Part shown: positions 8,096 through 56,042 of the stretch, one piece after another
Layout of the letters: the number at the start of each line of letters is the position of its first letter
Numbering within the stretch: the stretch's first letter is position 1
DNA from: Platanthera guangdongensis
Taxonomy: Eukaryota > Streptophyta > Magnoliopsida > Asparagales > Orchidaceae
Assembly: GCA_039583875.1 (NCBI GenBank)
Contig: CM077150.1
Span: 188,050,375 to 188,114,374 of the forward strand
Direction of reading: 5' to 3'
DNA length: 64,000 bases
The notes under the pieces: model-generated
What the model was told of the DNA's origin: nothing
What the model saw: the letters and a program-made list of their open reading frames with translations, nothing else
Database searches by the model: none
Made by a program: the position numbers and the translations under genes

Positions 8096-8306
8096 CTATA
8101 ATAGCAAAGAACCTAAATTAGACGACACACAAATTGTTATAAACAATCATTGGAACACTCAGGTTCCACAAAACAAGTGTATTTTTCATTCCTAAGTGGA
8201 CATTCATGGGTTCTTTTTGATGTTATAACGATGACGCACACATATGCTCACCACCTATTAAAAGAATTTGCCCACGAATTCATTTATGCCTGACCGTAAC
8301 CAGAAG

Positions 8307-8316
8307 TCTGATACCA
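8307..8316 (-). other. Primer-binding site of E
   Basis: The minus strand reads TTTGGTATCAGA directly after the LTR end at 8320. TGGTATCAGA matches the plant initiator tRNA-Met complement. Confidence 0.8.
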
Positions 8317-14285: not shown

Positions 14286-14309
14286 CCTTGTAGTATGCTT
14301 TTGCGCCAT
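14286..14309 (-). CDS. E LTR-encoded gag exon 1 (candidate)
   Basis: Eight codons (MAQKHTTR) begin at an ATG in the context TTTTCCATGGCG and are followed by a GTAATG donor. Length, position and surroundings match exon 1 of C and D. The upstream leader shares GGATCCG-GGAGG with D and B. The acceptor for the main gag exon is at 8096, in phase 0. Confidence 0.65.
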
Positions 14310-17131: not shown

Positions 17132-18550
17132 GTGAGCTTCCTACCCTCTCCATTGGTTCTAAATCTGTAGATATCTAGGTGAGATGTCAACTTAAAAGAG
17201 TCGAGAATTATGAGATGATGATTTTTATAGGAAGACGCCATTCTAGGGCTTGTGCTCTAAGGTTAGTGGTGTCTTCAACCTCTCCAACCTTCTATGTGAA
17301 GATGGGGGATGGTTTCGTGAAGAGTCATGGCCTCAAGAGGGTGAATAAGGGAGGAGGAATTTCTGATGTGATTTTGGAAGATCGACTTGAGGAGGGAGAT
17401 GAACCGATGCCGTTCATTTCGCTTTAAGATGCGTGCAGAATCTGTGTTCTGCGTGCAGTGATCTCCTTGGCCATTTTCAGATGTGATATGTCCAGATCTG
17501 GGATTTCCACTAAACACGAAAGTTGAAGCCCTTAAAAATACCTTTCCAACGAATGGTTGCACGACTTCAGGCGACATCTATAGCTACAGGAAAGTCCGAA
17601 CGAATTTGGCGGCAGACAAACCCTGCATATAGAAATTGTGTTCTGTACGCAGCAAACTTTGAAGCCTATTTCAAGTATATTACTCTCAAATCTGGGTTGT
17701 GTTCTGAGTATGAAAGTTGTAACCCATGAAAAGACCTTTCCATCAAGGGGTTACATGTCTTCATCAGATTCTTTAGCTTCGGGAATCTCCGATCGAAGTT
17801 GCTGTCCAAATTTATTCTGCACCTAAATTCTCGGTTTGGTATAGCATGGGATTTGGACTCGGTGGAGTCAATGTTGCAAGTTAACTTGAGGTTTGTGGAA
17901 CTCTTTTATGTTAATAATCATCTTAGTTCTATAATTGATGAAGTTTAATAATTAGATCCCATGAAATTGATTTGTGAAGCGAAGCATACTTAAACGAAAT
18001 GATTTGATAGAAATTGGTTGACTAATATAAATGCGCATCATGCTTATAATGTGTTGAAATCATTTGGAATGACATGTAGGAGGATAATTTATGGCCATGT
18101 GAATGATTGTTTAACTGAATGAATTTAGTAGCCCAATGCTTAGAGTGGCATCTCACTACAGGTAGCATCGTGTAAGGGTGTAAGTGAGAGTGTTGTCCGC
18201 ACTGAGTTGGTTAGTGTTGAGACGAGTTATAAATGGACGGTTGGGCTTGGTCCTCGGTGCTCATTTCCCGGGGGTCCTTCCGTGCTGAGTGGACGGTTGG
18301 GCTTGGTCCTCGTGTTTTTTTCACCGAGGCTCCTTCCGTGCCACGGTGATGTGGAATTGCATGCGGTGTGAGTCGACACGCGGTGCCGTAATCCTGTGAT
18401 AAGGATAGTGTGACCGGTCTACGGGATCGCCAGTCGTCACACCGACGGGAGTTGACAGATAGACCTTGGGCGGTTGGGCTTGGTCCTCAATGTTGTAACG
18501 CCCCGAAACTCAAAGGAGCAAAGGGGAATGTTTTGGGCCAATTTGAGTTC

Positions 18551-18955
18551 TGGCTGCAGGCACACGGCCTGGGACACGGGCGTGTCCCAGGGCGTGTCAA
18601 GCCTGTGTCGACACTAAGGCGCGAAGTCGACACTTTGGTCTCGACATTGTGTCGAGACTGGGCACACGGCCTGCGACACGGGCGTGTCGCAGGGCGTGTC
18701 AACCCGTGTCGACACTTAGCCATGAAGTCGACACAGTGCTTCGACGTTGTGTCGAGACACGGCACACGGCCTGCGACACGGGCGTGTCGCAGGGCGTGTC
18801 AACCCGTGTCGACACTCGTCCCGCAAAGTCGACACTTTGGTGTCGACAATGTGTCGAGACATGGCACACGGCCTGCGACACGGGCGTGTCGCAGGGCGTG
18901 TCGACCCGTGTCGACACTTAGCCGCGAAGTGTCGAGACCATGTACATGGCCTGGA
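18551..18955 (+). repeat. Four ~101-bp units with covarying palindromes in D U3
   Basis: Units start near 18560, 18661, 18761 and 18863. Each has a 24-nt near-palindrome with 11-bp arms around GG (18568-18591, 18670-18693, 18770-18793, 18872-18895), then GGGCGTGTC and GTGTCGAC. The first has arms CCTGGGACACG / CGTGTCCCAGG; the others CCTGCGACACG / CGTGTCGCAGG. Both sides of the stem changed together. The array is repeated in the 3' LTR at 25741-26145. Confidence 0.85.
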
Positions 18956-19486
18956 GCCCAGGCGTGTCAAGGTGACACGGGCAAGGACACGGGCGTGTCC
19001 TAGAACCCGTGCAGTGCTCGGGTTGAAAACGGGGAAAAATCATGGGGTACACGGCCAGCTACACGGCCGTGTCAGGTGGAACACGGGCATGTCAGCTCGA
19101 ACACGGGCGTGTTCGATACCCGTGTGAGGTTCCAGATGATTCGATTTTGATGGCGAATGAGGCACACGGCCCTGGACACGGGCGTGTGCCAGGCCGTGTT
19201 CGGTCCAGATTGGGCATTTCAGCCCCGAATCGAAGCCGTTCATTTCTTTGACTGAAGATCCAACGGCTGGGGGTTGTTCCTGAAGGGATATACCCGGGTT
19301 TTGACTTAGAAAACCCTCACTTTTTCCACTTATCCTCTTTCTAAATCCTTGGAGAAAGGAGAGCTAAGGCAAGAAGAAGAAGAGCTAGATCCGCCATTGG
19401 AGGAGCTTCGGAGCTCCGAATCGCAAGCCGACTCCGGATCCGCGGAGGCAACGCTAGTGCGGTCATTTCCATCCGATTACTTTCCG

Positions 19487-19510
19487 ATGGCGCCAAAGAG
19501 GACCGCAAGG
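19487..19510 (+). CDS. D LTR-encoded gag exon 1 (candidate)
   Basis: Eight codons, MAPKRTAR, start at an ATG in the context TTTCCGATGGCG; the donor is AGG/GTAACG. If unspliced, the frame stops at 19655-19657. If spliced to 21026, the frame enters the long gag frame in phase 0. The identical exon is in the 3' LTR at 26677-26700. C has the same length, phase and donor. Confidence 0.75.
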
Positions 19511-21025
19511 GTAACGATCCTCATCTTGAGCTTGAGTCGCTCTCTTTCTTTGCATAGGAAGCCCGCTCTCACGAGTTTGCGGAGAGTTGGAGGCGTTCCT
19601 TCGGGTAGATATGTGAAGTCCCCGTTGTTTAGAGTCCGTATGCGAGAACGGACATAGGCATTTTGGTTGAAGCCTACCCGGACATGTTAGTTCGGATCGG
19701 TGATGTTGCATTGCATAAGGCCGGAGAAGACTCCGTGCTATGGTTTGTTTTCGGGTTTTCTACGTGGTAGATTGCAGCAGGGAGCCTTAGGGATTAACCC
19801 AAACGTGCACCCGGAAAACTGGGCGGATACGAGATCTTGCCAACTTGGTGGCCTGAGAGTCAACTTGAACATAACTGGGTTATGTGATTTGTGATGGACA
19901 CGGGACTCGGTGGAAGTTTGACCCGCGCATATGGCTTAAATTGTCGTTGCGACGTGAGCACGGGTTAGATGGAACCGTACCCGTTCTATGTCGTTCGGTT
20001 AAAGAGACCTAAAGGTACGTGGCACTTACCGTTGGCATAGAATAGGGTCTTCGGCGGTCGATGGCTTAAATTGACGTGACCAATGCCAGGAAGACAAATT
20101 GCGCATAGGATTAGCCGTCTGTTGGCGGTGGTGAGTCTGGAATGTTGGTGGCTTAAGTTGACGCGACATGGACCGGTTCACCGAGAATGTGCCCTGAGTG
20201 CACGGGGCGTGTGGCCGTGCGAGCCAACGCCTGTGATGAAATGGCTATGTTTTTTATATTGCTCGCTTATGCTAATGAAATGCAGGGAAGGAGCATCGCC
20301 GCCCCGAGTTGGGGGCGGGATCGTTATAATTTGGTCAGCATTGCTGACCGTTGCCTTGTTTTGCCACCGTGCGGTGGTTTGTTGCTTGCAGGTGCAGCTG
20401 GACCAAGCGGTCAATAGCGGGCTAAAGCCCTTTTTGCGAAGCTGGCCCTCGAAGGCCCGAATGGAAATGTTTATTGCTTTATTCATGTATGACCGGCCTG
20501 CGTGCCGAGGTTTGTAAATCATGTAACAGACAAGTGAAACATTTTTTGTAAGGCCTTAAGGCTTGTTTTGAGTATTTTTGTAATGACATTCCTATTTTCG
20601 TATTAGTGGACATTCATGCTTGTTGCTGGGTTCTTGTTTTGCAACTTTTATAAACTGCTTCCGCTAGAATGCTCTGTGTAGGATGTTGAGATTGGTTGGA
20701 TGGTTTCCATACGTAACCACCCGGTCTGTCTGTGGTATATGGCGTCGGGCCCCGGCCGGACCTACTGCTATATGCTATGCGACGGATAGGGGGTGTTACA
20801 ATTTGGTATCAGACTACTGGTTTTGGTCGGGCTTGAACTGAATTCGTGGGCGAATTCTTTTTAAGGGGTGGTGAGCACATTGTGTGCGTCATCGTTATAA
20901 CAGTAAAAAGAACCCATGAATGTCCACTTAGGAATGAAAATACTCGTGTTTGAGGAACCTGCGTGTTCCTATAATTGCTGTTTGCAATTTATTTGGTCGC
21001 TTAACGGTGTTTTGTACCACTATAG
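19511..21025 (+). other. Candidate intron of D spanning the LTR end and PBS
   Basis: 1,515 bp from GTAACGATCC to TTGTACCACTATAG. It contains the rest of the LTR, the primer-binding site and the leader. The acceptor TAG (21023-21025) is an in-frame stop directly upstream of the gag frame, so gag cannot be entered from upstream without splicing. Confidence 0.7.
20803..20812 (+). other. Primer-binding site of D
   Basis: ATTTGGTATCAGAC follows the LTR end at 20800; TGGTATCAGA matches the initiator tRNA-Met complement. Confidence 0.8.
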
Positions 21026-22168
21026 GTGACCCGAAGTGGTGTTGGGCCGTCAAAACGCCGAGTTTCTGAGGCAAGTAGTGCACCGGATGTTGCTCCTGCA
21101 ACACCTCTATCGGCTGAGAATATACGATTGGTTGCTGAAGCGGTGTTGGCCGTGATCAATGCGCAGCCTGGAAGGCAAGCGCAGCAGCCCGCTCCTGTGA
21201 TGGAGCAAGTACCTCTGCAAGAGGCTGAGCCGAGGAGGGTGGAGCAAGTGATTGCGGAACCAATAGTGCCAAGGAGGGCAACTGAGAGGCAGCTGAAGCA
21301 TGTAATGAGCTTTAACCCTCCGCTATTCTCGGGGTTGGGAACCCCATCTCAGGCTGAAGACTGGCTCTCTAGGGTGAAGAGAGTCATGACAGCGACGGAG
21401 ACGGAGGAGTGGCAGATGACCACCATTACTACGTTCCTGCTGGATGGTGAAACAAGGATGTGGTGGGAAGGATTGGAGCCGCACTTACTGAGAGGTAGGC
21501 AACTTTGTGATGTCTCGATGGAGGAGTTCTCGAGATTATTTTTGGCTAGATACCTCCCTTCGACGCAGAAGATAGCGTTGGACAATGAGTTCCTGAAGTT
21601 GGTGCAGGTGAGAGGAGCGTGGATGAATATCTCCACGAGTTTACGCGGTTGAGTCGTTATGCTAGCTCCATCATCATGCATGAGGAGCGCAAGACTAATC
21701 GTTTCTATGAAGGCCTGAGGGATGAGCTGAGATTGTTACTGTCGGGGCCAATGACGCAGGGTTTCTTAACCTTGGTCAATACTGCCCGGTCCTTGGAGAA
21801 GGACATGAAGAGCGTGCAAGCGAAGAAAAGCTTGAGTGAAAAGAAATCTGAGTTCAGAGTGCCGACTGCTTCAAAGTCCGGCTATCGGAAGTCTTTTAAG
21901 AAGCATAGGACTTCGGGTCCAGCTCCTTCTGGCGCTTCTGGGGCGACTACGGGTCGGACCCCGGGTGCGTGCTTTACATGTGGAAAGACGGGGCATTTCG
22001 CCCGTGATTGTTGGAGCGGACGTCCTAAGTCCGAGAGGAGGCCGGGAGCCACTTATGAAGAAAAGGGAAAGGCGGTGGAGTCGACCGCATCCCACTATGC
22101 TCCGGCCCAACCAAGGGTCTACAATCTTGGCCAACAGGAGGCCATTAAACAAGCTGACGTGGTGACAG
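21026..22168 (+). pseudogene. D gag main exon (one frameshift)
   Basis: Gypsy Gag. The frame opens with GTG ACC CGA right after the TATAG acceptor; the first in-frame ATG is about 58 codons in, so the start must come from elsewhere (LTR exon 19487-19510). Blocks: ATERQLKHVMSFNPPLFSG near 21270-21330, EDWLSRVKRVMTA, GETRMWWEGLEPH near 21446, and EFSRLFLARYLPSTQK near 21530. A one-base frameshift near 21607 follows. The frame then resumes with MDEYLHEFTRLSRYASSI, and the zinc knuckle CFTCGKTGHFARDC lies near 21970-22011. It ends at DVVTG at the donor of the small intron. Confidence 0.85.
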
Positions 22169-22240
22169 GTACGTTTTAATTTATAGCAAGTCAATTTATA
22201 TGCTTGTTATGCACATGTTACCTTACCACTACTTGTTTAG
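22169..22240 (+). other. Candidate gag-protease intron of D
   Basis: 72 bp, GTACGT to TTGTTTAG. Unspliced, gag stops after three codons (TAA at 22177-22179). Spliced, gag is joined to pol in phase 1 within a glycine codon. Confidence 0.75.
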
Positions 22241-25200: not shown

Positions 25201-25688
25201 TATACTTGAAGATCAAGCCATTCAAGGGTGTCTCGCGGGTGCGGCGATTGAAAAAGCTAAGCCCGAGGTACCTTGGACCGTTTGAGGTTCTGGAGCGAGT
25301 AGGAGAAGCGGCCTTTCGGCTGAAGCTTTCAGTGGAGCTAAGTGGTTTACATGATGTATTCCATATTTCGGTGCTTCGGAAGGCGGTGCAAGAGCCTACG
25401 CAAGTGATCGCGGTCGATCAAGTGCCGGTGGATAGTGGGCTAACGACAAAAGTCAAGCCCGTGCGGATTGAGGACTCGGAGGTCAAGCGGCTACGCAATA
25501 AAGAGATCAGGATGGTCAAGGTCCGGTGGGACAATTGCGGTCGTGAGGAGCTCTCTTGGGAGCGAGAGCAGACGATGCTTGACGAGTATCCGGAGTTGTT
25601 CCGCTCAGGTACAAATTTTGTTTTGTACATGTTTTTCCCTTTATGTAATTTCGTGGGCGAAATTCTTTTAAGAGGGGTAGAGTTGTAA
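22241..25688 (+). pseudogene. D pol: protease, RT, RNase H, integrase, chromodomain
   Basis: Protease [10 protein letters not shown] near 22280, with [11 protein letters not shown] near 22483. [22 protein letters not shown] near 22913, [12 protein letters not shown] and FIDD near 23268-23280. RNase [15 protein letters not shown] near 23709 and, after a one-base deletion near 23870, TDHKSLKYL and ADALSR. Integrase: HHCC zinc site near 24360-24482; the core acidic residues fall in [19 protein letters not shown] and [14 protein letters not shown] replaces a CAG at 24598-24600. GPY/F ([15 protein letters not shown]) and a chromodomain tail ([15 protein letters not shown]) follow. Only the deletion and the TAG stop it from being intact. 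Confidence 0.9.
25670..25683 (+). other. Polypurine tract of D
   Basis: AAGAGGGGTAGAGT lies directly before the 3' LTR, after the conserved TTTCGTGGGCGAAATTC block. Confidence 0.75.
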
Positions 25689-27990
25689 CGCCCCGAAACT
25701 TAAAGGAGCAAAGGGGAATGTTTTGGGCCAATTTGAGTTCTGGCTGCAGGCACACGGCCTGGGACACGGGCGTGTCCCAGGGCGTGTCAAGCCTGTGTCG
25801 ACACTAAGGCGCGAAGTCGACACTTTGGTCTCGACATTGTGTCGAGACTGGGCACACGGCCTGCGACACGGGCGTGTCACAGGGCGTGTCCACCCGTGTC
25901 GACACTTAGCCGTGAAGTCGACACAGTGCTTCGACGTTGTGTCGAGACACGGCACACGGCCTGCGACACGGGCGTGTCGCAGGGCGTGTCAACCCGTGTC
26001 GACACTCGTCCCGCGAAGTCGACACTTTGGTGTCGACAATGTGTCGAGACATGGCACACGGCCTGCGACACGGGCGTGTCGCAGGGCGTGTCGACCCGTG
26101 TCGACACTTAGCCGCGAAGTGTCGAGACCATGTACACGGCCTGGAGCCCAGGCGTGTCAAGGTGACACGGGCAAGGACAAGGGCGTCTCCTAGAACCCGT
26201 GCAGTGCTCGGGTTGAAAACGGGGAAAAATCATGGGGTACACGGCCAGCTACACGGCCGTGTCAGGTGGAACACGGGCGTGTCAGCTCGAACACGGGCGT
26301 GTTCGATACCCGTGTGAGGTTCCAGGTGATTCGATTTTGACGGCGAATGAGGCACACGGCCCTGGACACGGGCGTGTGCCAGGCCGTGTTCGGTCCAGAT
26401 TGGGCATTTCAGCCCCGAATCGAAGCCGTTCATTTCTTTGACTGAAGATCCAACGGCTGGGGGTTGTTCCTGAAGGGATATACCCGGGTTTTGACTTAGA
26501 AAACCCTCACTTTTTCCACTTATCCTCTTTCTAAATCCTTGGAGAAAGGAGAGCTAAGGCAAGAAGAAGAAGAGCTAGATCCGCCATTGGAGGAGCTTCG
26601 GAGCTCCGAATCGCAAGCCGACTCCGGATCCGCGGAGGCAACGCTAGTGCGGTCATTTCCATCCGATTACTTTCCGATGGCGCCAAAGAGGACCGCAAGG
26701 GTAACGATCCTCATCTTGAGCATGAGTCGCTCTCTTTCTTTGCATAGGAAGCCCGCTCTCGCGAGTTTGCGGAGAGTTGGAGGCGTTCCTTCGGGTAGAT
26801 ATGTGAAGTCCCCGTTGTTTAGAGTCCGTATGCAAGAACAGACATAAGCATTTTGGTTGAAGCCTACCCGGACATGTTAGTTCGGATCGGTGATGTTGCA
26901 TTGCATAAGGCCGGAGAAGACTCCGTGCTATGGTTTATTTTCGGGTTTTCTACGTGGTAGATTGCAGCAGGGAGCCTTAGGGATTAACCCAAAGGTGCAC
27001 CCGGAAAACTGGGCGGATACGAGATCTTGCCAACTTGGTGGCCTGAGAGCCAACTTGAACATAACTGGGTTATGTGATTTGTGATGGACACGGGACTCGG
27101 TGGAAGTTTGACCCGCGCATATGGCTTAAATTGTCGTTGCGACGTGAGCACGGGTTAGATGGAACCGTACCCGTTCTATGTCGTTCGGTTAAAGAGACCT
27201 AAAGGCACGTGGCACTTACCGTTGGCATAGAATAGGGTCTTCGGCGGTCGATGGCTTAAATTGACGTGACCAATGCCAGGAAGACAAATTGCTCATAGGA
27301 TTAGCCGTCTGTTGGCGGTGGTGAGTCCGGAATGTTGGTGGCTTAAGTTGACGCGACATGGACCGGTTCACCGAGAATGTGCCCTGAGTGCACGGGGCGT
27401 GTGGCCGTGCGAGCCAACGCCTGTGATGAAATGGCTATGGTTTTTATATTGCTCGCTTATGCTAATGAAATGCAGGGAAGGAGCATCGCCGCCCCGAGTT
27501 GGGGGCGGGATCGTTATAATTTGGTCAGCATTGCTGACCGTTGCCTTGTTTTGCCACCGTGCGGTGGTTTGTTGCTTGCAGGTGCAGCTGGACCAAGCGG
27601 TCAATAGCGGGCTAAAGCCCTTTTTGCGAAGCTGGCCCTCGAAGGCCCGAATGGAAATGTTTATTGCTTTATTCATGTATGACCGGGCAGCATGCCGAGG
27701 TTTGTAAATCATGTAATAGACAAGTGAAACATTTTTTGTAAGGCCTTAAGGCTTGTTTTGAGTATTTTTGTAATGACATTCCTATTTTCGTATTAGTGGA
27801 CATTCATGCTTGTTGCTGGGTTCTTGTTTTGCAACTTTTATAAACTGCTTCCGCTAGAATGCTCTGTGTAGGACGTTGAGATTGGTTGGATGGTTTCCAT
27901 ACGTAACCACCCGGTCTGTCTGTGGTATATGGCGTCGGGCCCCGGCCGGACCTACTGCTATATGCTATGCGACGGATAGGGGGTGTTACA
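25684..27990 (+). repeat. D 3' LTR
   Basis: 2,307 bp, the same length as the 5' LTR, with about 28 substitutions by eye and no indel noticed. It carries the exon 1 copy at 26677-26700 unchanged. One palindrome (near 25860) has a one-sided change, TGTCACAGG against CCTGCG. Confidence 0.93.
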
Positions 27991-37919: not shown

Positions 37920-38511
37920 TCAACTTTCCAAGGTATCAATTGGAGATGTGCCGAAAGTGATAGAATTCGAGGATGTGTTTCCTGACGAGATTCCTAGAGC
38001 GCCTCCTCGATGGGAGATCGATTTCTCAATTGAGTTAGTTCCAGAAGCTAGGCCGGTGTCACGTCCTCCTTTTAAGATGGCACTGAAGGAGTTGGCTGAG
38101 CTCAAGATACAATTGCAGGAACTGTTGGGGAAGGGGTACATTATACCCAGATCTTAGCCTTGGAGCGCACCCGTACTATTTGTGAAGAATAAAGATGATA
38201 GTATGTGATTGTGTACCGACTACCGGGAGTTTAATAAACTGACTGTCAAGAATAAGTATCTGATTCCACAGTTAGATTACATGTTCGACCAGTTGGTAGG
38301 TTTAGTGGTGTACTCTAAGTTCGACTTGAAGTCAGGGTACAACCAATGCAGATTCAAGAAGAGGACATACCCAAGATAGCATTTGGAACAAGGTATCATC
38401 ACTTTGAGTTATCAGTGATGTCGTTCAGGTTGACGAACGTGCCATCGATATTCATGGATTTGATGAACCGAGTGTTTTGGGAGTATTTAGACTCATTAAT
38501 TGTAGTTTTCA
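37920..38511 (+). pseudogene. B RT N-terminal part, between A and C
   Basis: Continuation of B pol after the duplicated TCAAC. EFEDVFPDEIPRAPP, IDFSIELVPEARPVSRPPF and ELKIQLQELLGKGYI are followed by a TAG at 38156-38158, then [26 protein letters not shown] and a shifted MPF-like region. The domain is interrupted at 38511, just before the FIDD motif, by element C. Confidence 0.8.
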
Positions 38512-39416
38512 TGTAACAGCCCAAAGTTCTGAAACAGGCAAATTTGGGTGACACGGCCTGGGACACGGGCGTGTCCCAGGGCGTGTCAGGTGACACGGCC
38601 TGCGACACGGGCGTGTCGCAGGGCGTGTCGAGTTGTGTCGACGATTGGGCTTTGTCTCGACGATTTGTTTTTGGTCTCGACGATTCGTCGAGAGGAGGCA
38701 CACGGCCCAGGACACGGGCGTGTCCAAGGCCGTGTCGCATGCTCGACGATTTTTACTCGACGATCGTCGAGTGTCGAGAAGTGCGTGTCGAGTGTTGAAC
38801 ACGGCCTGTGACACGGGCGTGTCACAGGGCGTGTCAAATCAGGCGACGAACTCAGCCCGCCGAAAGAATTCGACAGGGCGTGTCTTTGTGCCGTGTCTGG
38901 GCACACGGCCTGGGACACGGGCGTGTCACAGGACGTGTGAAGTCTCGGGATGATTTGGGATTTTTTTCACCCAGGTACACGGCCACAGACACGGGCGTGT
39001 CTGAAGGCGTGTTGGTGACACGGCCCATGACACGGGCGTGTCCCGTGGGCGTGTCACTGGTTTGGATAAGTCGGTTGACCACCGCTTGAGGCACACGGCC
39101 AGGCACACGGCCGTGTTCGAGGCCGTGTCGGGTCAAAATGTGTGTTTTTGGCAGAATCGTGGCCGTCCATTTCTTCAGTCTGGATCCAAGGGCTGAAAGC
39201 TCTTCTTCTTTTTCCTTAAGGGCCGAATTCAGAAAAGAATCCTCACTTTGAATTGGACTTCATCTTTCTTCAAGAGAGAGAGAAAGAGAGAGAGAAAGGA
39301 GGAGGAAGAAGGGAAGGGGGCTGCTGTTGGTGGTGCTGCGGTTTACCGGCAAGAGATCCGAAGTCAGCGTTGCGGAGGAAACGCTCTTGCGAGTCTTGCA
39401 AGCAAGCTTTCAAGCC

Positions 39417-39440
39417 ATGGCACCGAAGCGATCGTCAAGG
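39417..39440 (+). CDS. C LTR-encoded gag exon 1 (candidate)
   Basis: Eight codons, MAPKRSSR, start at an ATG in the context CAAGCCATGGCA; the donor is AGG/GTAACG. The 3' LTR has an identical copy at 46799-46822. Spliced to 41194 it continues in phase 0 into the intact gag frame. In C this would complete an otherwise start-less gag. Confidence 0.78.
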
Positions 39441-39714
39441 GTAACGACTTTTCTTCCTAGCCAGGCGAAGGCTTCTATTTTGGCATATCTTTTGATTCCC
39501 CCACCAAGAGGTGGCTGCTTTTGGGAGTCATTTGGGTGGATGCTTGAAATCCCCTTGGTATTGCATATAGATCCGGAAATGAGTACGGAATAGGCATGCT
39601 GTGTGAAGCCCATCTGGACAGGTTGGTCTGGATTGGTGATGTTGCATATGAACCGGAGAAGACTCCGTGATAAACGTGTAGTGTAAGGAGTCTATGGGTT
39701 ATGCCTGCGAAAAG

Positions 39715-39985
39715 GAGTAGCAGGAAGTACTGGGGTGGTAGTCTAGGAAAATAGCCTTGTGGTGGTTTTGGGTCCAACCTGTGGTTGAGGCACAGGAAGT
39801 ACTGGTGGGACCAGGAAAGGCCCTTTTTGTGATGCTTGATGTCATAGGGTGTCAACCTGTGAAGCGAGTCACAGGAAGTACTGGTGTGCCCAGGAAAGAC
39901 CCCTGACATTTGTGCTTATGCGGTGTCCACCTGTGGAGAGAATCACAGGAAGTACTGGTGCGCCCAGGAAAGACCCGTTGTTGCT
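39715..39985 (+). repeat. Four ~75-bp degenerate repeats in C LTR
   Basis: Units share ACAGGAAGTACTGG followed by a G-rich spacer and AGGAAAG-CCC. They begin near 39722, 39792, 39869 and 39946 and recur in the 3' LTR. They lie within the candidate long intron, so they would be absent from spliced gag RNA. Confidence 0.75.
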
Positions 39986-40978
39986 GTGAGGAAATGGGTA
40001 TAGTGACATACCCAGGCTTGAATGCTAGGAACAGGATTGGTGAGACCGACCCGCGCCTTTGATATAGCCGTGAGTACGCTGTACTCGGAGAAGGCAAGGC
40101 GATTTGAGCAACGGGGGGTGGAGGATCCGACCTGCGCTATGTCCGTCCGACGTGAGACCAAAAAGTGCGGTCTGTTGGAGCGCATAGCAAGAGTCTTCGG
40201 CCTGCGCGCCATGACACAAAGGGGGGCTACGGGCCATCCCGGTGTCCGAGGACTAACTCCGGCTGCACGCCATGGAGTAAATGCTCAAGAGTGTTACCGT
40301 TGGGTGATAATCCTGATACGGTGGTGGGCAAGAGGTTGCCAGAACACCAAGAATGTGCCCTGAGTGCACGGACCGTTGGGCCGGGCGGCGAACGGTTGTG
40401 ATGGCTTGTGTGCGTGAAAGCACCTTTGATGATATAGCTTGCCATACTTGTGATATGATATGCCTGCAGGGAAAATACCGCTGCCCCGAGAGGAGGGGTA
40501 GGGTCGTTATAATTTGGTCAGCTGAACGCTGACCGTTGCTTTTGTTTGCCACCGTTGGGTGGATTGTCCTTGCACAGGTGCTGGAGAGCCGAGCGGGTCG
40601 CATAGAGGTTGATGCTCCTGCTGGTGTTGCTGCTGCTGCTAGCCCTCGAAGGCTAATGTTCTTTTGAGTGTTTTCTTTTGTGGCCGGCCTGCGCGCCAAT
40701 TTGTTTAGGCCACTGCATGAAAGCCCTGTAAGGCCATAAGGCCAATACTTTATACATGTTGTAAGACATTCCTATCTATATATAAAATGTGGAGTTTATA
40801 TTTGGACATTCATGAGGAGTTCAAGTAGCTTATGCTTCCGCTAGAATGCTTGGGATAGGTGCGATGCGCTGCTCTGGTATCATCCTGTACCTTCACCGAC
40901 TGTTTTGTGGTATATCCTGTGGGGCCCCGGCCGGACCTTCTAGAATATATCATATGAACGGATGGGGTTGTTACATTT

Positions 40979-40990
40979 TTGGTATCGGTT
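40979..40990 (+). other. Primer-binding site of C (variant)
   Basis: After LTR end GTTACA the sequence is TTTTTGGTATCGGTTG. Only TGGTATC matches the initiator tRNA-Met complement, and it diverges after seven bases. This is a weak primer site for such a young element. Confidence 0.6.
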
Positions 40991-41193
40991 GTCTTGGTCT
41001 TTCCCTCTCGAAGTCGTGGCCGCCTTCTTTTGTGGGGTGGCGAGCACGTGGTTGTGCACACCAAAGTCTACGATTGAACTCCTGAATGTCCATGATAGGA
41101 ATGCATTTTGTATGTTTGAGGAACCTGTGTGTTCCTATTTTGTGTTGTTTGCTTGGGTACGACCGCTAATGTGTGTGTCTTGTCCACCTTTAG

Positions 41194-42316
41194 GTGACTC
41201 GGAGTGGAGCTGGGCAGTCTGAGCCCCAGCGTTCTGATGAAAGTACGACACCAGCCGCGGTGCCTACACCTCCTCCGTCTGCGGAACATGTCCGTTTAGT
41301 TGCGGAGGCCTTGTTTACCATGATCCAAGGCCAGCCACTTAGGCAGGAGCAAGCGGCTGTGGGGCCAGAACAGGTGGCGGCAAGGCCTGAACCTGTCGTG
41401 GATGTGGTACCTCGAGCGGCCGAGAAGCAGCTAACGCGGTTTATGAGTTTCCATCCGCCTACGTTCTCGGGAGCGGGAACCCCGACGCAGGCTGAGGATT
41501 GGTTATCGCGCGTCAAGCGAGTGATGACGGCGATAGGCACGGCGGAGCATCAGAAAGTTACCTTAGCCACCTTCTTGCTTGAAGGAGAAGCTCGGTTATG
41601 GTGGGATGAGATGGAGTTGCATCATTTGGCGGGTCGTCCGTTAACCCAAGTGTCGATGGAAGAATTCTCCCGGCTCTTCCTTGCGAAGCACCTTCCTGTG
41701 GCTCAACGGATAGCCATAGAAAATGAATTCCAACGGTTGACTCAAGGTGATGGCAGTGTTGACGCGTACCTACATGAGTTTACTCGCTTGGGGCGGTATG
41801 CGGGTTCGATTTTTGCTGATGAGCAGAGGAAGACTAATCGGTTCTATGAAGGACTGAGGGACGAGTTGAGGTTCCTTGTGTCTAGTTCGGTGAACCAGGG
41901 TTTCCAAGCGTTGGTTGACACTGCGACCGCGTTGGAAAAGGATATGAAGAGGGTGCAAGGGAAGAGAGCGTTGGTGATGACGCAACCGGAGTGGAAGGCG
42001 CCCCGCTCTGGAAAATCATTTTACAAGAAGAGATGGGGTAAGAGGTCCAAGCCGAGTGGACAAGCTCCTTCATCAGTTGCAACGGGAGCAACTTCAGGGG
42101 CAACCTCCAAGCCAGAAACTCGTACCTGCTTCAATTGTGGTAGGATGGGGCACATTGCGCGAGATTGCCGGATGCCGCCAAAGAGTGAAAAGAAGGCGGG
42201 AGCATCTTATGCGGAGAAAGGAAAAGCGGTGGTGGATTCCTCTGCCTCGCAAGCGCAACCCCGGGTCTACAATCTTGGCCTGCAGGAGGCCATCAAGCAG
42301 AGTGACGTGGTCACAG
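41194..42316 (+). CDS. C gag main exon (intact)
   Basis: Gypsy Gag, 374 codons open from GTG ACT CGG to the small-intron donor. Blocks: PPSAEHVRLVAEALFTMIQG near residue 25, EKQLTRFMSFHPPTFSG near 77, EDWLSRVKRVMTA, GEARLWWDEMELH near 130, EFSRLFLAKHLPVAQR, VDAYLHEFTRLGRYAGSIFA near 188, and zinc knuckle CFNCGRMGHIARDC near 310. No in-frame ATG precedes the main domain before about residue 42, and the codon before GTG is TAG. An LTR exon is therefore the likely start. It ends within the sequence DVVTG. Confidence 0.88.
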
Positions 42317-42407
42317 GTATGAGTTTAGTTTTGCTTATGCTAATGTTTGTATGCTTAGCTTAGTACCCCTACGTTTGTGGTTTGTGTGTGTGACATGTTT
42401 GTCATAG
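42317..42407 (+). other. Candidate gag-protease intron of C
   Basis: 91 bp, GTATGAGTTT to TTGTCATAG. Read through, gag ends at TAG 42361-42363; spliced, ACA-G joins GC-TTT (phase 1, glycine) and leads into the open pol frame. The length is not a multiple of three, so pol is otherwise in another frame. Confidence 0.78.
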
Positions 42408-45400
42408 GCTTTGTGATGATTCGGGACACGCTGGCGCGAGCACTGTTTGATACAGGTGCATCGCATTCTTTTCTGTCTATTGAATTTCTTACGCGGCTTG
42501 GGATACCCAGTCGTGCAAAGGCAGATAGCGTCAGAGTGGTGTTGCCGAATGGTTGTTGGATGCTTGCGGATCAAGCTTGCGATGTGGCGGTTCAAGTAGG
42601 AAGTCGGGATTTTTGTTTATCCGCATTTGTTTTGCCAATCTCGGAATTCGATGTGATTTTTGGGATGGATTGGCTTGCGGAGCAGCATGCTAGGATCGAT
42701 TGCCAGTCCAAAGAAATCACGTTGGGCCAGAATACCGAACAGGAGACCAAGTTCGCGGGTATACGAGGAGTAGGCGGGACGTTGATGTCTGCACTCCAGG
42801 TAGTCAAAGCTGTTCGGAAGGGTGCGGAGTGTTACTTTGCACTAATGCAGGCTGTTGAGCCTAAGACCACTTTGTGTGAGGTTCCGATTGTGGCAGAATT
42901 TGCTGATGTGTTTCCCGCAGATCTCCCTGGGCTACCACCCCAGCGGGAGATTGACTTCACAATTGAGTTGGTGCCAGGTGCGAAACCAGTGGCCCGTTCG
43001 CCATATCGCGTTGCGCCTAAAGAGATGGCTGAGTTGAAGGTTCAACTACAAGAAATGTTAGAGCAAGGCTATATCCGCCCAAGTATGTCACCTTGGAGCG
43101 CGCCTGTGCTTTTTGTAAAGAAGAAAGATGGTGGGTTACGGTTGTGTATAGACTACCGTGAATTGAATAAGCTGACTGAGAAGAATAAGTATCCGATACC
43201 TCGGATTGATGAATTATTTGATCAGCTAGTGGGCTCGACCGTCTATTCAAAGTTGGACCTGAAGTCTGGTTATTACCAGTTAAGGATTCGGGAAGGTGAC
43301 ATTCCCAAAACCGCATTTGGAACGCGTTATGGGCACTATGAGTTCACAGTCATGCCCTTTGGATTGTGTAATGCGCCCTCGGTGTTTATGGATTTGATGC
43401 ACCGTATTTTTCGTGAGTACCTGGATCTGTTTGTGATAGTGTTCATTGATGATATCCTGGTGTACTCGAAGTCCAAAGCGGAGCATGAGATTCATTTGCG
43501 GTTAGTGTTGAATACGTTGAGGCAAAATCAGCTTTATGCCAAGTTCTCGAAGTGCGAGTTTTGGCTATCGTCAGTGGCATTTTTGGGCCATGTGGTGAGT
43601 GGAGCGGGCATTGCAGTGGATCCAGCGAAGATAAGAGCCATACAAGATTGGCCAATACTGTCTTCCGTGGCCGAAGTTAGGAGTTTCCTTGGACTTGCGG
43701 GCTATTATAGAAGATTTGTGGAAAACTTCTCGCGGATCGCTTTGCCGCTAACCACACTGACGCGAAAAGATCAGAAGTTCGTTTGGACGCCAGAGTGCGC
43801 ACGAGCTTTTGAAGAGCTGAAGGTTCGGTTGACCACGGCGCCGGTGTTGTCTTCGCCATGTGGAACCGATGGGTTTGTAATATATAGTGATGCCTCAGGG
43901 AGCGGCTTAGGCTGCGTTCTTCTGCAGAGCGGAAAGGTGATTGCTTATGGCTCACGCCAGCTGAAGGTGCACGAGCGGAACTATCCCGTCCATGATTTGG
44001 AATTAGCAGCGGTGATTTTTGCACTGAAGCTGTGGCGACACTACCTTTATGGTGTGAAGGTGGAGATCTATACTGATCATAAGAGCCTTAAGTATCTGTT
44101 GGAGCAGAAAGAGTTGAACATGCGACAACGAAGGTGGTTGGAGTTCCTTGGGGACTACACTTTCGAGATTCACTATACACCCGGGAAAGGGAATGTTGTC
44201 GCGGATGCTTTGAGTCGGCGAGTTCCGGCGAGAGCGAATTGGTTACAAAGGCATGATGAACGTCTGATCCAGGAGTTGGAGGCATTGGAGATCTATTGTG
44301 TTGACAAAAATTCCACTGCCATTGCGTGTTTGAACTGGACCGAGGTGCAATGTGACCTTGCGGACCGAGTTCGACGGGCAACGGAGTTGGATGAAGATCT
44401 CTTGCGCTATGGGAATGAAGGGCCAGAGGGCAAATTCACCTGGATTGACGGTCTGTTGCGAAAAGAAGGCCGATTGTGCGTCCCAAATGTGGGGAAACTG
44501 AGGGAAGAACTGATGTATGAAGCACATTATACGAAGTATTCCATTCACCCCGGGAGCACAAAGATGTTCAACGATATGAAAAAGCTCTTTTGGTGGCCAG
44601 GGCTTAAGAAAGATGTTGCCCTGTATGTAGCCAAATGCCAAACATGTGCGATGGTGAAGGCGGAATGCCAAAAGCCGGGTGGTTATTTGAAGTCACTGCC
44701 GATCCCATTATGGAAATTTGATGATATTTCCATGGATTTTGTGCATGGATTGCCAAGATCGCAGCGAGGAAATGATTCCATTTGGGTGATAGTTGACCGG
44801 CTAACAAAAGTAGCACATTTTCTCCCAAACCGGCGGGATGATTCGGTTGAAAGTTTGGCAAAGTTATATGTTGATCAAATTGTGCGTCTTCACGGTGTTC
44901 CTCGAAGCATCGTAAGTGATCGAGATGGGCGATTCACGTCAAATGATTGGAGACTAGTTCACCGACTGTTGGGCACGAAATTGACCTTCAGCACGGCCTT
45001 TCATCCCCAAACGGATGGCCAAACTGAACGTACCAACAGAACAATGGAGGACATGCTCCGAATGTGCGCCCTTGACTTCAGAAAGAGATGGGAAGATCAT
45101 CTCTATATGGTCGAGTTTGCATATAATAACAGCTACCAGGCAAGTATTGGGATGGCACCATATGAAGCCCTATATGGCAGGAAATGTCGTACTACCTTGG
45201 CTTGGGTAGAAGCGGGTGAAGCCCGGGTTGTTAAACCAAATGAGGTGGATGAAGCAAACTCAACCATTCGGACTATTCGAGAGAGATTGCTAGTTGCTCA
45301 AGATCGACAAGCGAAGTACTACAACGCCAAGCACCGGAACGTTGAATTTGCGGTTGGCGATTGGGTCTACTTGAAGATCAAGCCATTCAAAGGTGTCTCC

Positions 45401-45772
45401 AGGATTCGACGATTGAAAAAGTTGAGTCCAAGGTATTTGGGTCCCTTTGAAGTGGTTGAGCGAATTGGCGAAGCAGCTTATCGGCTCGCTCTGTCGGCGG
45501 ACTTGGGTGGGTTACATGATGTCTTTCACATCTCGGTGCTGCGGAAAGCCGTGAAAGATCCAGCTCAAGTGATCGCGGATGATCGTGTGCCGGTGGAGTA
45601 TGGGCTAACAACGAGAGTTAGACCCATTCGGATCGAAGATCGAGCCGAGAAACAGTTGCGGAACAAGACAGTCGGTATGGTGAAAGTCCGGTGGGACAAC
45701 TGCGGCCGTGAAGAGTTGACGTGGGAACGCGAGCAGACCATGCGAGAAGAGTTCCCTGAGTTGTTTCTGTAA
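42408..45772 (+). CDS. C pol: protease, RT, RNase H, integrase, chromodomain (intact)
   Basis: An uninterrupted pol frame. Protease: [10 protein letters not shown] near 42447 and [12 protein letters not shown] near 42649. [22 protein letters not shown] near 43090, [12 protein letters not shown] near 43254, [13 protein letters not shown] and catalytic FIDD at about 43442-43453. RNase [15 protein letters not shown] near 43881 and [19 protein letters not shown] near 44073. Integrase: HHCC zinc site ([10 protein letters not shown]...CQTC) near 44524-44650, the core in [17 protein letters not shown] and [10 protein letters not shown] near 44720-45040, GPY/F near 45430, and chromodomain tail [17 protein letters not shown] near 45680. 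Frame opening and intron phase support a start by splicing at 42408, not at an ATG. Confidence 0.92.
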
Positions 45773-45892: not shown

Positions 45893-48358
45893 TGTAACAG
45901 CCCAAAGTTCTGAAACAGGCAAATTTGGGTGACACGGCCTGGGACACGGGCGTGTCCCAGGGCGTGTCAGGTGACACGGCCTGCGACACGGGCGTGTCGC
46001 AGGGCGTGTCGAGTTGTGTCGACGATTGGGCTTTGTCTCGACGATTTTTTTTTTGGTCTCGACGATTCGTCGAGAGGAGGCACATGGCCCAGGACACGGG
46101 CGTGTCCAAGGCCGTGTCGCATGCTCGACGATTTTTACTCGACGATCGTCGAGTGTCGAGAAGTGCGTGTCGAGTGTTGAACACGGCCTGTGACACGGGC
46201 GTGTCACAGGGCGTGTCAAATCAGGCGACGAACTCAGCCCGCCGAAAGAATTCGACAGGGCGTGTCTTTGTGCCGTGTCTGGGCACACGGCCTGGGACAC
46301 GGGCGTGTCACAGGCCGTGTGAAGTCTCGGGATGATTTGGGATTTTTTTCACCCAGGTACACGGCCACAGACACGGGCGTGTCTGAAGGCGTGTTGGTGA
46401 CACGGCCCATGACACGGGCGTGTCCCGTGGGCGTGTCACTGGTTTGGATAAGTCGGTTGACCACCGCTTGAGGCACACGGCCAGGCACACGGCCGTGTTC
46501 GAGGCCGTGTCGGGTCAAAATGTGTGTTTTTGGCAGAATCGTGGCCGTCCATTTCTTCAGTCTGGATCCAAGGGCTGAAAGCTCTTCTTCTTTTTCCTTA
46601 AGGGCCGAATTCAGAAAAGAATCCTCACTTTGAATTGGCCTTCATCTTTCTTCAAGAGAGAGAGAAAGAGAGAGAGAAAGGAGGAGGAAGAAGGGAAGGG
46701 GGCTGCTGTTGGTGGTGCTGCGGTTTACCGGCAAGAGATCCGAAGCCAGCGTTGCGGAGGAAACGCTCTTGCGAGTCTTGCAAGCAAGCTTTCAAGCCAT
46801 GGCACCGAAGCGATCGTCAAGGGTAACGACTTTTCTTCCTAGCCATGTGAAGGCTTCTGTTTTGGCATATCTTTTGATTCCCCCACCAAGAGGTGGCTGC
46901 TTTTGGGAGTCATTTGGGTGGATGCTTGAAATCCCCTTGGTATTGCATATAGATCCGGAAATGAGTACGGAATAGGCATGCTGTGTGAAGCCCATCTGGA
47001 CAGGTTGGTCTGGATTGGTGATGTTGCATATGAACCGGAGAAGACTCCGTGATAAACGTGTAGTGTAAGGAGTCTATGGGTTATGCCTGCGAAAAGGAGT
47101 AGCAGGAAGTACTGGGGTGGTAGTCCAGGAAAATAGCCTTGTGGTGGTTTTGGGTCCAACCTGTGGTTGAGGCACAGGAAGTACTGGTGGGACTTGGAAA
47201 GGCCCTTTTTGTGATGCTTGATGTCATAGGGTGTCCACCTGTGAAGCGAGTCACAGGAAGTACTGGTGTGCCCAGGAAAGACCCCTGACATTTGTGCTTA
47301 TGCGGTGTCCACCTGTGGAGAGAATCACAGGAAGTACTGGTGCGCCCAGGAAAGACCCGTTGTTGCTGTGAGGAAATGGGTATAGTGACATACCCAGGCT
47401 TGAATGCCAGGAACAGGATTGGTGAGACCGACCCGCGCCTTTGATATAGCCGTGAGTACGCTGTACTCGGAGAAGGCAAGGCGATTTGAGCAACGGGGGG
47501 TGGAGGATCCGACCTGCGCTATGTCCGTCCGACGTGAGACCAAAAAGTGCGGTCTGTTGGAGCGCATAGCAAGAGTCTTCGGCCTGCGCGCCATGACACA
47601 AAGGGGGGCTACGGGCCATCCCGGTGTCCGAGGACTAACTCCGGCTGCACGCCATGGAGTAAATGCTCAAGAGTGTTACTGTTGGGTGATAACCCTGATA
47701 CGGTGGTGGGCAAGAGGTTGCCAGAACACCAAGAATGTTGCCCTGAGTGCACGGACCGTTGGGCCGGGCGGCGAACGGTTGTGATGGCTTGTGTGCGTGA
47801 AAGCACCTTTGATGATATAGCTTGCCATACTTGTGATATGATATGCCTGCAGGGAAAATACCGCTGCCCCGAGAGGAGGGGTAGGGTCGTTATAATTTGG
47901 TCAGCTGAACGCTGACCGTTGCTTTTGTTTGCCACCGTTGGGTGGATTGTCCTTGCACAGGTGCTGGAGAGCCGAGCGGGTCGCATAGAGGTTGATGCTC
48001 CTGCTGGTGTTGCTGCTGCTGCTAGCCCTCGAAGGCTAATGTTCTTTTGAGTGTTTTCTTTTGTGGCCGGCCTGCGCGCCAATTTGTTTAGGCCACTGCA
48101 TGAAAGCCCTGTAAGGCCATAAGGCCAATACTTTATACATGTTGTAAGACATTCCTATCTATATATAAAATGTGGAGTTTATATTTGGACATTCATGAGG
48201 AGTTCAAGTAGCTTAGGCTTCCGCTAGAATGCTTGGGATAGGTGCGATGCGCTGCTCTGGTATCATCCTGTACCTTCACCGACTGTTTTGTGGTATATCC
48301 TGTGGGGCCCCGGCCGGACCTTCTAGAATATATCATATGAACGGATGGGGTTGTTACA
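45893..48358 (+). repeat. C 3' LTR
   Basis: 2,466 bp, with about 18 differences from the 5' LTR including two single-base indels. The exon 1 copy at 46799-46822 is unchanged. It ends GTTGTTACA at 48358. Confidence 0.93.
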
Positions 48359-48624: not shown

Positions 48625-48629
48625 TTTCA

Positions 48630-50960
48630 TTGACGATATTTTGATATACTCCAAATCGAAGGCAGAGTATGAGGCTTATCTGAGAGTATTCTTATAAACT
48701 CTGAGAGAGAACAAGCTGTATTCCAAGTTCTCGAAGTGTGCGTTCTGGTTGGAGAAGGTGGCATTTTTGGGCCATATGATTAGTGGTGGCGTGGTGGTGG
48801 TGGATCCAGCGAAAGTTGAGGCCATCATAGATTAGCCAGTTCTGAGCACCAGGGCGGAAGTCAGAAGTTTCCTTGGACTAGCCGGGTACTATAGAAGGTT
48901 TGTGGAAAACTTTTTGCGGGTAGCTCTACCCCTCACTACTATGACTCGTAAGGACCAGAAGTTTGTCTGGAGTCAGGAGTATAATCAAGTGTTTGACTCC
49001 TTGAAGTAAAGGCTGATGACATCTACCATCCTAAGTCTTTCTAAAGGGGCTGAAGGATTTCAGATTTTCAATGACGCATCAGGTTGTGGTTTGGGTTGCA
49101 TGTTAGTGCAACATGGCAAGGTGATAGCCTTTGCGTATAGATAGTTGATACCTCATGAGAATAATTACCCCGTCCATGACTTGGAGTTGGCGGCAGTAAT
49201 TTTTGCGTTGAAGTTGTGGTAGCACTATGTGTACGGTGCAAAGGTATAGATCTTCAAGGACCACAAAAGCCTGAAGTATCTTCTGGATCAAAAAGATTTG
49301 AACATATGGCAGTATAGGTGGGTCAAGTTCCTTGGGGACTACCATGTGGCGATTCAGTATACGCCATGCAAAGCCAACGTTGTGGCAGATGCCTTGAGTA
49401 GGGGGTATTCTGGACAAGGGAATTGGATTGAAGCTCATGATGTGTGGTTGGTTCGGGACTGTGAGTCCCTGAGGATTGAGTATATAGCCAGAGGCGAGAC
49501 TATCACGGCTCGATTGAACTGGATAGAATTGCAGAATGACTTGTCTGATTGTATTCGGGAAGCGACCAGTGTGGATGTAGGGTTCCATCCATTTGTGGTG
49601 GAAGCTAAAAAAGGTGAGGGTGGTGCCTCAGAGATAATTGATGGGATCTTAAAGAAGGACAAAAGGATTTGTGTATCACAGTTCGGCAAGATCCGTGAGC
49701 AGTTGATGTTTGAGGCTCATTTCACAAAGTACTTAATTCACCCGGGCACTTCAAAGATGTACTTGTATATGAAGAAATCCTTTTGGTGGTCTGGTTTGAA
49801 GAGGAACGTAGCTTTGTACGTGAGTCGGTGCCAAACTTGTGCCTTAGTGGAGGCTGAGTGTCAGAAGCCGGGTGTGTTCCTGAAGCCTCTTCCTATCCCC
49901 AAGTGGAAATTTGATGACATCTTCATGGACTTTGTGCATGGCTTACCTCGGTTACAGTAGGAAAATGATGTGATTTGGGTAATCGTGGATCGCTTGACCA
50001 AAGTAGCTCACTTCATCCTGAATCAGAAGGAGGACAACATGGAGAAGCTGGTAGAGCTGTACGTTCTCAAATTATGTGGTTGCACGTAATTTCCAAGAGT
50101 TTTGTTAGTGATCATGATGGACAGTTCACATCCAAGGACTGGAGATTGGAACAGAAACGTCTGGGCACAAAGCTCAAATTTTGTATGGTGTTCCATCCTC
50201 AAATCGATGGTCAAACTGAAAGGACGAACCATACAATGGAGGATATGCTGAGAATGTGTAGCCTTGATTTGGCAAGAGGTGTGAAGATCACATTTTCATG
50301 GTGGAGTTTGCCTACAATACTAGTTTCCAGGCGAGTATCAAGATGGCGCCATATGAGGCTCTGTATGGAAGGTGGTGTCGAATACCGATGTCATGGATAG
50401 AGACAGGAGACACCAAACCTTTTGGAAAAGAGGTGGTGGTTGAAGGTTGCATAGGATCGTCAAGCAAAGTATTTCAATGCTCGCCAGAGGAACGTGGAGT
50501 TCACGGTAGGAGACTGAGTATACCTAAAGATTAAGCAGTTCAAAGGTGTTTCGTGGATTCATCGACTCAAGAAGTTGAGTTCGAGCTTTTTGGGGCCGTT
50601 CGAGGTCGTTGAATGTATTGGAGAAGCAGCCTGCAACTTGGCATTATCCACAGAGCTAAGTGGATTACACGATGAATTGTATGTCTCAGTTTTGAGGAAA
50701 GCCTTGATGGAGACGAGCGTTATGGTCTAGTCGGCAGCGGTGCCGATAGAAGAGGATTTGAGGACGAATGTCTGTCCTGTCGGCATAGAGGATTCAGAAG
50801 TTCGGTAGTTGTGGAGCAAAGAAGTTAAGCACATGAAAGTGCGCTGGGATAACTACGGGCGAGACAAATTCTCATGGGACCATGAGCAAGCAATGCGGGA
50901 GGACTTCCCAAAATGTTTTACGTCAGATATGCTTTTTGGTTTCAGTGTATGCTATATTTT
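48630..50960 (+). pseudogene. B pol 3' part: RT, RNase H, integrase (decayed)
   Basis: Continues B RT from the broken FIDD motif (DDILIYSKSKAEYEAYLRVF). [24 protein letters not shown], RNase H (IFNDASGCGLGCMLVQHG, then [15 protein letters not shown]), integrase zinc site (FTKYLIHPG...CQTC) near 49725-49840, [25 protein letters not shown] and [11 protein letters not shown] near 50200 follow. A GPY/F-like region near 50570 and a degenerate chromodomain complete it. Many TAG/TAA stops replace Trp or Gln codons (48697, 48834, 49007, 49142, 49220, 49248, 49958). The longest open stretch is 49298-49960. Confidence 0.85.
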
Positions 50961-55542: not shown

Positions 55543-56042
55543 NNNNNNNNNNNNNNNNNNNNNNNNNNNNNNNNNNNNNNNNNNNNNNNNNNNNNNNNNN
55601 NNNNNNNNNNNNNNNNNNNNNNNNNNNNNNNNNNNNNNNNNNNNNNNNNNNNNNNNNNNNNNNNNNNNNNNNNNNNNNNNNNNNNNNNNNNNNNNNNNNN
55701 NNNNNNNNNNNNNNNNNNNNNNNNNNNNNNNNNNNNNNNNNNNNNNNNNNNNNNNNNNNNNNNNNNNNNNNNNNNNNNNNNNNNNNNNNNNNNNNNNNNN
55801 NNNNNNNNNNNNNNNNNNNNNNNNNNNNNNNNNNNNNNNNNNNNNNNNNNNNNNNNNNNNNNNNNNNNNNNNNNNNNNNNNNNNNNNNNNNNNNNNNNNN
55901 NNNNNNNNNNNNNNNNNNNNNNNNNNNNNNNNNNNNNNNNNNNNNNNNNNNNNNNNNNNNNNNNNNNNNNNNNNNNNNNNNNNNNNNNNNNNNNNNNNNN
56001 NNNNNNNNNNNNNNNNNNNNNNNNNNNNNNNNNNNNNNNNNN
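55543..56042. other. Assembly gap (500 N)
   Basis: Exactly 500 N, a conventional placeholder, followed by a run of 14 G. Confidence 0.99.

Follow-up and report, generated by a model that had tools for sequence, protein, structure and literature searches.

Element C, an LTR retrotransposon in a 64,000-nucleotide stretch of the Platanthera guangdongensis genome (the window), probably begins its gag gene inside its own LTR. An eight-codon stretch there is the predicted first exon of gag, and would be spliced over an intron containing the primer-binding site (PBS) onto a gag frame that has no ATG of its own at its beginning. The basis of this reading in the DNA is a short open reading frame, an open gag frame, AG/GT borders, branch-point-like sites, the recurrence of these features in relatives of C and the position of the PBS within the interval to be removed.

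Layout of element C

Its LTRs, PBS, gag and pol, the last in the order PR-RT-RH-INT, identify C as a Ty3/gypsy LTR retrotransposon (Table 1). The LTR pair shows 16 mismatches over 2466 aligned positions (99.27% identity) and in a domain search the Retrotrans_gag and zf-CCHC models match the gag frame. The Pfam Chromo match is weak (18.8 bits, E 0.0015, below the gathering cut-off of 25.1); C may belong to the plant chromovirus clade Tekay/Del. C apparently sits inside the pol of a further related element, whose segments lie at 37930-38513 and 48626-50919; about 270 unassigned nt separate the second from the 3' LTR of C.

Table 1. Features of element C and of its relatives B and A, as positions in the window
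Feature	Position	Strand	Remark
5' LTR of C	38512-40975	+	99.27% identical to 45893-48358
Exon 1 of C, ATG and 7 codons, MAPKRSSR	39417-39440	+	counterparts in B, A and LTRs fetched for comparison
Predicted 5' splice site, GTAACG	39441-39446	+	GTAACG or GTAATG in 7/7 aligned LTRs
Predicted intron 1 of C, 1,753 nt, phase 0	39441-41193	+	spans LTR remainder, PBS and leader
PBS-like TGGTATCGG	40980-40988	+	just 3' of C LTR
Branch-point-like CTAAT	41166-41170	+	A lies 24 nt upstream of C intron-1 end
Predicted 3' splice site of C intron 1; in-frame TAG	41191-41193	+	direct reading
C gag frame, no start ATG	41194-42363	+	predicted exon 2, runs into intron 2 to stop
Predicted intron 2 of C, 91 nt	42317-42407	+	if retained, Gag ends at 42361-42363
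C pol	42408-45772	+	protease, RT, RNase H, integrase, SH3, weak Chromo
3' LTR of C	45893-48358	+	second exon-1 copy at 46799-46822
5' LTR of B	18494-20800	+	exon 1 at 19487-19510, MAPKRTAR/GTAACG
Predicted intron 1 of B, 1,515 nt	19511-21025	+	PBS TGGTATCAGA at 20804-20813
B gag, frame broken in present copy	21026-22168	+	sequence reading
Predicted intron 2 of B, 72 nt	22169-22240	+	bounded by GT..AG
3' LTR of B	25684-27990	+	exon-1 copy at 26677-26700
Exon 1 of A, MAQKHTTR/GTAATG	14286-14309	-	A is an old, interrupted relative
A, PBS (8316-8307) to predicted 3' splice site (8096)	8096-8316	-	gag from 8095

A predicted gag start exon in the LTR

The initial annotation of this DNA held that the gag frame of C opens with GTG at 41194 directly after an in-frame TAG, and the letters read exactly so; from there the frame runs for 389 codons to its stop. 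It also gave no methionine before about codon 42: the absence was borne out, but the exact first Met is at codon 43. The short LTR reading frame offered as the missing start (ATGGCACCGAAGCGATCGTCAAGG) could likewise be read directly, its ATG (39417-39419) standing in the context gccATGG and its last codon, AGG (39438-39440), abutting GTAACG. Joining 39440 to 41194 does give one open phase-0 frame, and the 1,753 nt removed do contain the PBS-like sequence; since the LTR extends from 38512 to 40975, exon 1 lies inside it and TGGTATCGG inside the predicted intron. Provided that splicing occurs, these positions entail a Gag mRNA without a PBS, which could hence not be a template for reverse transcription. 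TGGTATCGG, and TGGTATCAGA in B and A, may correspond to tRNA-iMet.

Two features count against the splice reading: exon 1 is short, at 24 nt, and its donor, AGG/GTAACG, departs from the consensus AG/GTAAGT at -2, +5 and +6. The ATG-free stretch 5' of exon 1 measures 117-327 nt and is unusual in B only (P 0.015; others P 0.05-0.23).

In the mechanism that we propose, transcription would start in the LTR upstream of 39417, which would place exon 1 in R or U5. The spliceosome would join 39440 to 41194 to yield the Gag mRNA, while unspliced RNA would keep R-U5-PBS and provide the genome, or reverse-transcription template. Read without splicing, the exon-1 ATG leads to a stop after 58 codons and intron 1 of C holds 37 ATGs (2.1 per 100 nt); because that frame closes and those further ATGs precede gag, the unspliced genome would make no Gag. 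Splicing would in this way be the switch between the RNA pools for translation and replication. We lean, with some reserve, towards the stronger proposal that the switch is obligate: Gag would come only from RNA without U5 and PBS, copying would proceed only from RNA unable to make Gag, the LTR-PBS block would sit in a gag intron, every LTR, solo LTRs included, would carry a start codon and a donor, and the arrangement would have been kept through deep divergence of this orchid retrotransposon family.

Relatives in the window and elsewhere in the genome

Element B was found by self-comparison; its LTRs are 98.8% identical, AATGT flanks it on both sides and its pol is 74% identical to that of C. 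Exon 1, the donor, a branch-point-like site and the AG are common to C, B and A. The gag start reads ACTATAG/GTGACCCGAAGTGG in B (from 21026) and ATTATAG/GAGGCTAGGAGTGG in A (8096/8095), and in all three a branch-point-like YTNAY motif has its A 21-24 nt upstream of the intron's 3' end (CTAAT, 24 nt, in C; TTAAC, 21 nt, in B; CTAAT, 22 nt, in A). B and A share the PBS TGGTATCAGA; C reads TGGTATCGG. In B, GAATTCGTGGGCGAATTCTTTTTAAGGGGT near the PBS (20840-20869) resembles the stretch with a polypurine tract before the 3' LTR (25647-25683). The LTR of C has, near its end, TATATATAAA (40777-40786), which is absent from the LTR of B and would be a second promoter or else belong to a poly(A) signal.

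LTRs within 200 kb beside the window also carry the exon and donor, as MPPRKNAR/GTAATG in L032 and MAPKRNAR/GTAACG in L036. Both LTRs of L049 have MAPKRSSR/GTAACG, with TTGATAG/GTGGCG as acceptor, and the decayed L048 has MTPKRLIW/GTAACG. The AG/GTG acceptor and gag start is found in L036 and L049 as well. The recurrence of exon 1 in A, B, L032, L036, L048 and L049 led us to reject chance as its origin. All of the compared DNA is from one genome, which counts against the splice reading.

Initiation of Gag at GTG 41194 or at another non-AUG codon on unspliced RNA might be proposed instead, since C, B, L036 and L049 all retain this GTG. We regard it as very improbable: A has GAG, an in-frame TAG precedes the GTG in C and a long, ATG-rich leader lies upstream.

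The pattern M-[AP]-P-[KR]-[KR]-x-x-R followed by GTAA matched 13 times in 264 kb, made up of the window and 20 fetched 10-kb stretches, and had no match in letter-reversed and complemented controls. LTR-query matches cover all 13 sites, among which there are five distinct exon sequences; six of the 13 belong to a near-identical duplicate of the window or to its extra B-like copy, and the duplicate was not counted as independent. Two 35-nt LTR-query fragments (L039 3479-3513 and L040 917-951) stop short of exon 1 and were left out of the counts.

The gag of C gave at least 5959 first-look candidates in the window's assembly (4.2 Gb), of which 40 were scored (99-100% identity) and 20 of those 40 fetched. 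Exon 1 is in place, with at most three mismatches in 30 bases, in 19 of the 20, and intron 1 measures 1,683-1,795 nt in 19 of 20; the ATG and eight open codons are kept in 17 and the acceptor in all 20. The remaining copy, L011, is rearranged, with exon 1 inverted nearby. In these young copies the stretch between branch point and acceptor has a substitution rate of 0.003, exon 1 with its donor 0.008, the last part of the LTR 0.009 and the other parts counted 0.016-0.020, all from few events. The closeness of the exon-1 value to that of the last LTR part counts against the splice reading. In L029, a decayed relative, gag begins VTRSG and the base before GTGAC is G, the AG not being kept in place, which counts against the splice reading. 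No spliced DNA copy was found in the 4.2 Gb with a junction probe allowing two mismatches (the one match is the unspliced, decayed L029; control 0). This absence fits an RNA that lacks a PBS and is not copied, fits an absence of splicing too, and decides nothing. A viral contig collection held no relative of C gag (three pattern matches, none confirmed) and no match to the exon-1 pattern.

Substitution pattern across exon 1, donor and gag start

Between B and C, exon 1 has five synonymous and two non-synonymous differences (pS 0.833, pN 0.111), and gag codons 1-41, which precede Met43, have pN 0.242 and pS 0.626; for 37 aligned codons past the donor, read in the same frame, pN is 0.519 and pS 0.705. 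By these values, exon 1 and exon 2 are both under constraint, which falls off at the predicted donor. This coding-type substitution, and the recurrence of the signals in diverged relatives, argue for the exon, donor and acceptor much as the initial annotation had drawn them; the relatives, the predicted gag-pol intron and the peptide's likeness to Gag N-termini predicted elsewhere are additional to that annotation.

When 52 ungapped 24-nt windows were ranked for pN-pS in five LTRs (C, B, L032, L036 and L049; the seven-LTR set has no ungapped window), the exon-1 frame came second, and ranks 1, 3 and 4 overlap it in-frame. Random placement of the seven B/C differences kept at least six of the eight residues in 2-5% of trials, a result that is suggestive alone and stronger with the other evidence. 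Eight ATGs can be aligned between the LTR-leader regions of C and B, and a similar eight-residue peptide is kept at only two of them, exon 1 and 40353; the block at 40353 differs by 2 nt and one residue, which counts against the splice reading.

The initial annotation had itself named an internal methionine as the alternative that would undo its proposal. On this view translation of Gag would begin at Met43 in C, from RNA left unspliced or processed in some other way, and exon 1 would be a chance or regulatory short reading frame. Met is present at the aligned position in seven of 12 sequences compared (C, A, L029, P0001, where it is the model's start, P0007, P0008 and P0018) and is absent from five (Val in B, L036 and L049, Ala in P0010, and Val with a Met adjacent in P0009), which allows an internal start in some members without making it general. 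Such a start leaves the coding-type conservation of gag codons 1-41 unexplained, the ATGs of intron 1 would all lie ahead of it and it does not account for the fall in exon-1 frame conservation past the donor. The alternative is weakened without being removed, and we consider it unlikely.

Predicted proteins and the N-terminus of Gag

Searches with the gag protein returned six and one matches; a pol search returned 7960, of which the best 120 were taken. All 126 proteins fetched were scanned for the N-terminal motif, and 21 of them were also inspected by eye. An M[AP]P[KR][KR] start occurs in seven of the 126, for example in P0033 (MAPKRTTR), P0056 (MPPRRGAR) and P0125 (MPPRRSGH); the likeness is one of predicted peptides. 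Because some relatives' predicted proteins begin in this way, exon 1 may be the ordinary Gag N-terminus, which an intron or a displaced LTR border may have brought into the LTR. The exon-1 peptide stands at the N-terminus of none of the gag-search matches (six and one), and the Platanthera gene models P0007, P0008, P0009 and P0018 do not contain exon 1; no gene model among those inspected uses it, which counts against the splice reading.

In P0007, P0008 and P0009, from P. zijinensis, unlike sequences precede a shared VTRS, a pattern that would fit sequence spliced in at the gag acceptor. P0018, from P. guangdongensis, starts MTRSG; that copy would therefore have an ATG at the acceptor, which counts against the splice reading. 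Together the four models fit an acceptor and a missing usual start, and not the donor. P0007, P0008 and P0009 bring up a further possibility, that splicing into 41194 is real but proceeds from another donor in the LTR or leader, giving another N-terminus and leaving exon 1 not the first exon, or not the only one. GT sites do occur in the relevant LTR part of relatives (GAG/GTTTGT in B, GAT/GTATGT in L029). The sequence before VTRS varies among the models, however, C has no GT at the corresponding place and the aligned ATGs of C and B offer a comparable octapeptide only at 40353; we judge this possibility to be quite improbable.

A likely second intron at the gag-pol junction

C and B likely have a second intron at the gag-pol junction. 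The 91-nt and 72-nt intervals have GT..AG borders and are U-rich (46% and 43%). DVVTG/F spans the junction in five Platanthera models (P0002 and P0007-P0010), and the junction pattern is seen in six of the eight proteins given (these five and P0001, which ends in the intron), P0011 and P0018 being the exceptions. Retention of intron 2 would give Gag alone and removal of introns 1 and 2 a Gag-Pol mRNA; intron 2 would then set the ratio of Gag to Gag-Pol.

Comparison with known systems

In retroviruses and LTR retrotransposons a single unspliced RNA generally acts as both Gag mRNA and genome, and the insect endogenous retroviruses ZAM and Beagle express gag from unspliced RNA. Ty1 of yeast has its Gag start codon in the LTR, as is predicted here, but it is unspliced and its PBS lies within the translated RNA; in Ty1 the frame is continuous into gag, whereas the exon-1 frame of C closes before it.

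The balance between these two roles of the RNA is described as a major question in the abstract of a study of BARE (PMC3735527). If our reading is correct, splicing would settle that balance by construction. It would also explain why a long stretch of LTR and leader, before which gene models differ, lacks a start codon for gag, and solo LTRs could supply neighbouring genes with a coding first exon. BARE1 of barley (Ty1/copia) is a plant LTR element with separate RNA pools, as is predicted for C; its spliced RNA, from which a 104-nt intron at the gag end is removed, encodes Gag only, and its unspliced capped RNA can also encode Gag (PMC3735527). The predicted intron 1 of C, unlike that of BARE1, precedes the main gag exon and contains the PBS, and splicing would supply the start codon; at the gag-pol junction of C it is retention that would give Gag, and removal Gag-Pol.

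Splicing likewise produces the shGAG RNA of EVADE and other Ty1/copia elements of Arabidopsis, where it raises Gag over Pol; that intron lies downstream in gag-pol, its removal takes out the protease part and is coupled to premature polyadenylation, and the available sections of these reports describe no LTR start codon (PMC8892269, PMC12786077). The Ogre intron, like the predicted intron 2 of C, splits the polyprotein coding region; intron 2 of C lies before the protease, Ogre belongs to a non-chromovirus clade and the available sections of the source mention no LTR start exon (PMC6317226). In ZAM and Beagle the spliced product is Env, unlike the Gag predicted here (PMC12992720). A further parallel may be P4 of rice tungro bacilliform virus, a pararetrovirus in which a short leader reading frame gives the start codon and is splice-fused to a distant frame, the coat protein coming from pregenomic RNA (PMC5902531); the sequence signals and conservation in C would fit a leader fusion of this type. 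Diaspora of soybean is likewise predicted to have donors in its LTR, five in number, and two acceptors around the start of gag; unlike C, it opens gag with a start codon of its own, 3' of the PBS. In 2005 its authors wrote that an intron upstream of gag was unreported in any LTR retroelement (PMC1142308). Among the papers listed by our searches of the open full-text literature, screened by title and abstract start, none describes an element whose gag start exon lies in the LTR with the PBS in an intron, and the predicted exon is likely to be new relative to the known spliced and LTR-start elements.

Surroundings of the elements

Positions 1-55541 of the window are repeated about 99-118 kb downstream (L033-L040) at 99.4-100% identity, as either a segmental duplication or an uncollapsed haplotype. 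The repeat carries the extra B-like copy and an insertion near the 3' LTR of C. A run of 500 Ns at 55543-56042 is likely an assembly gap.
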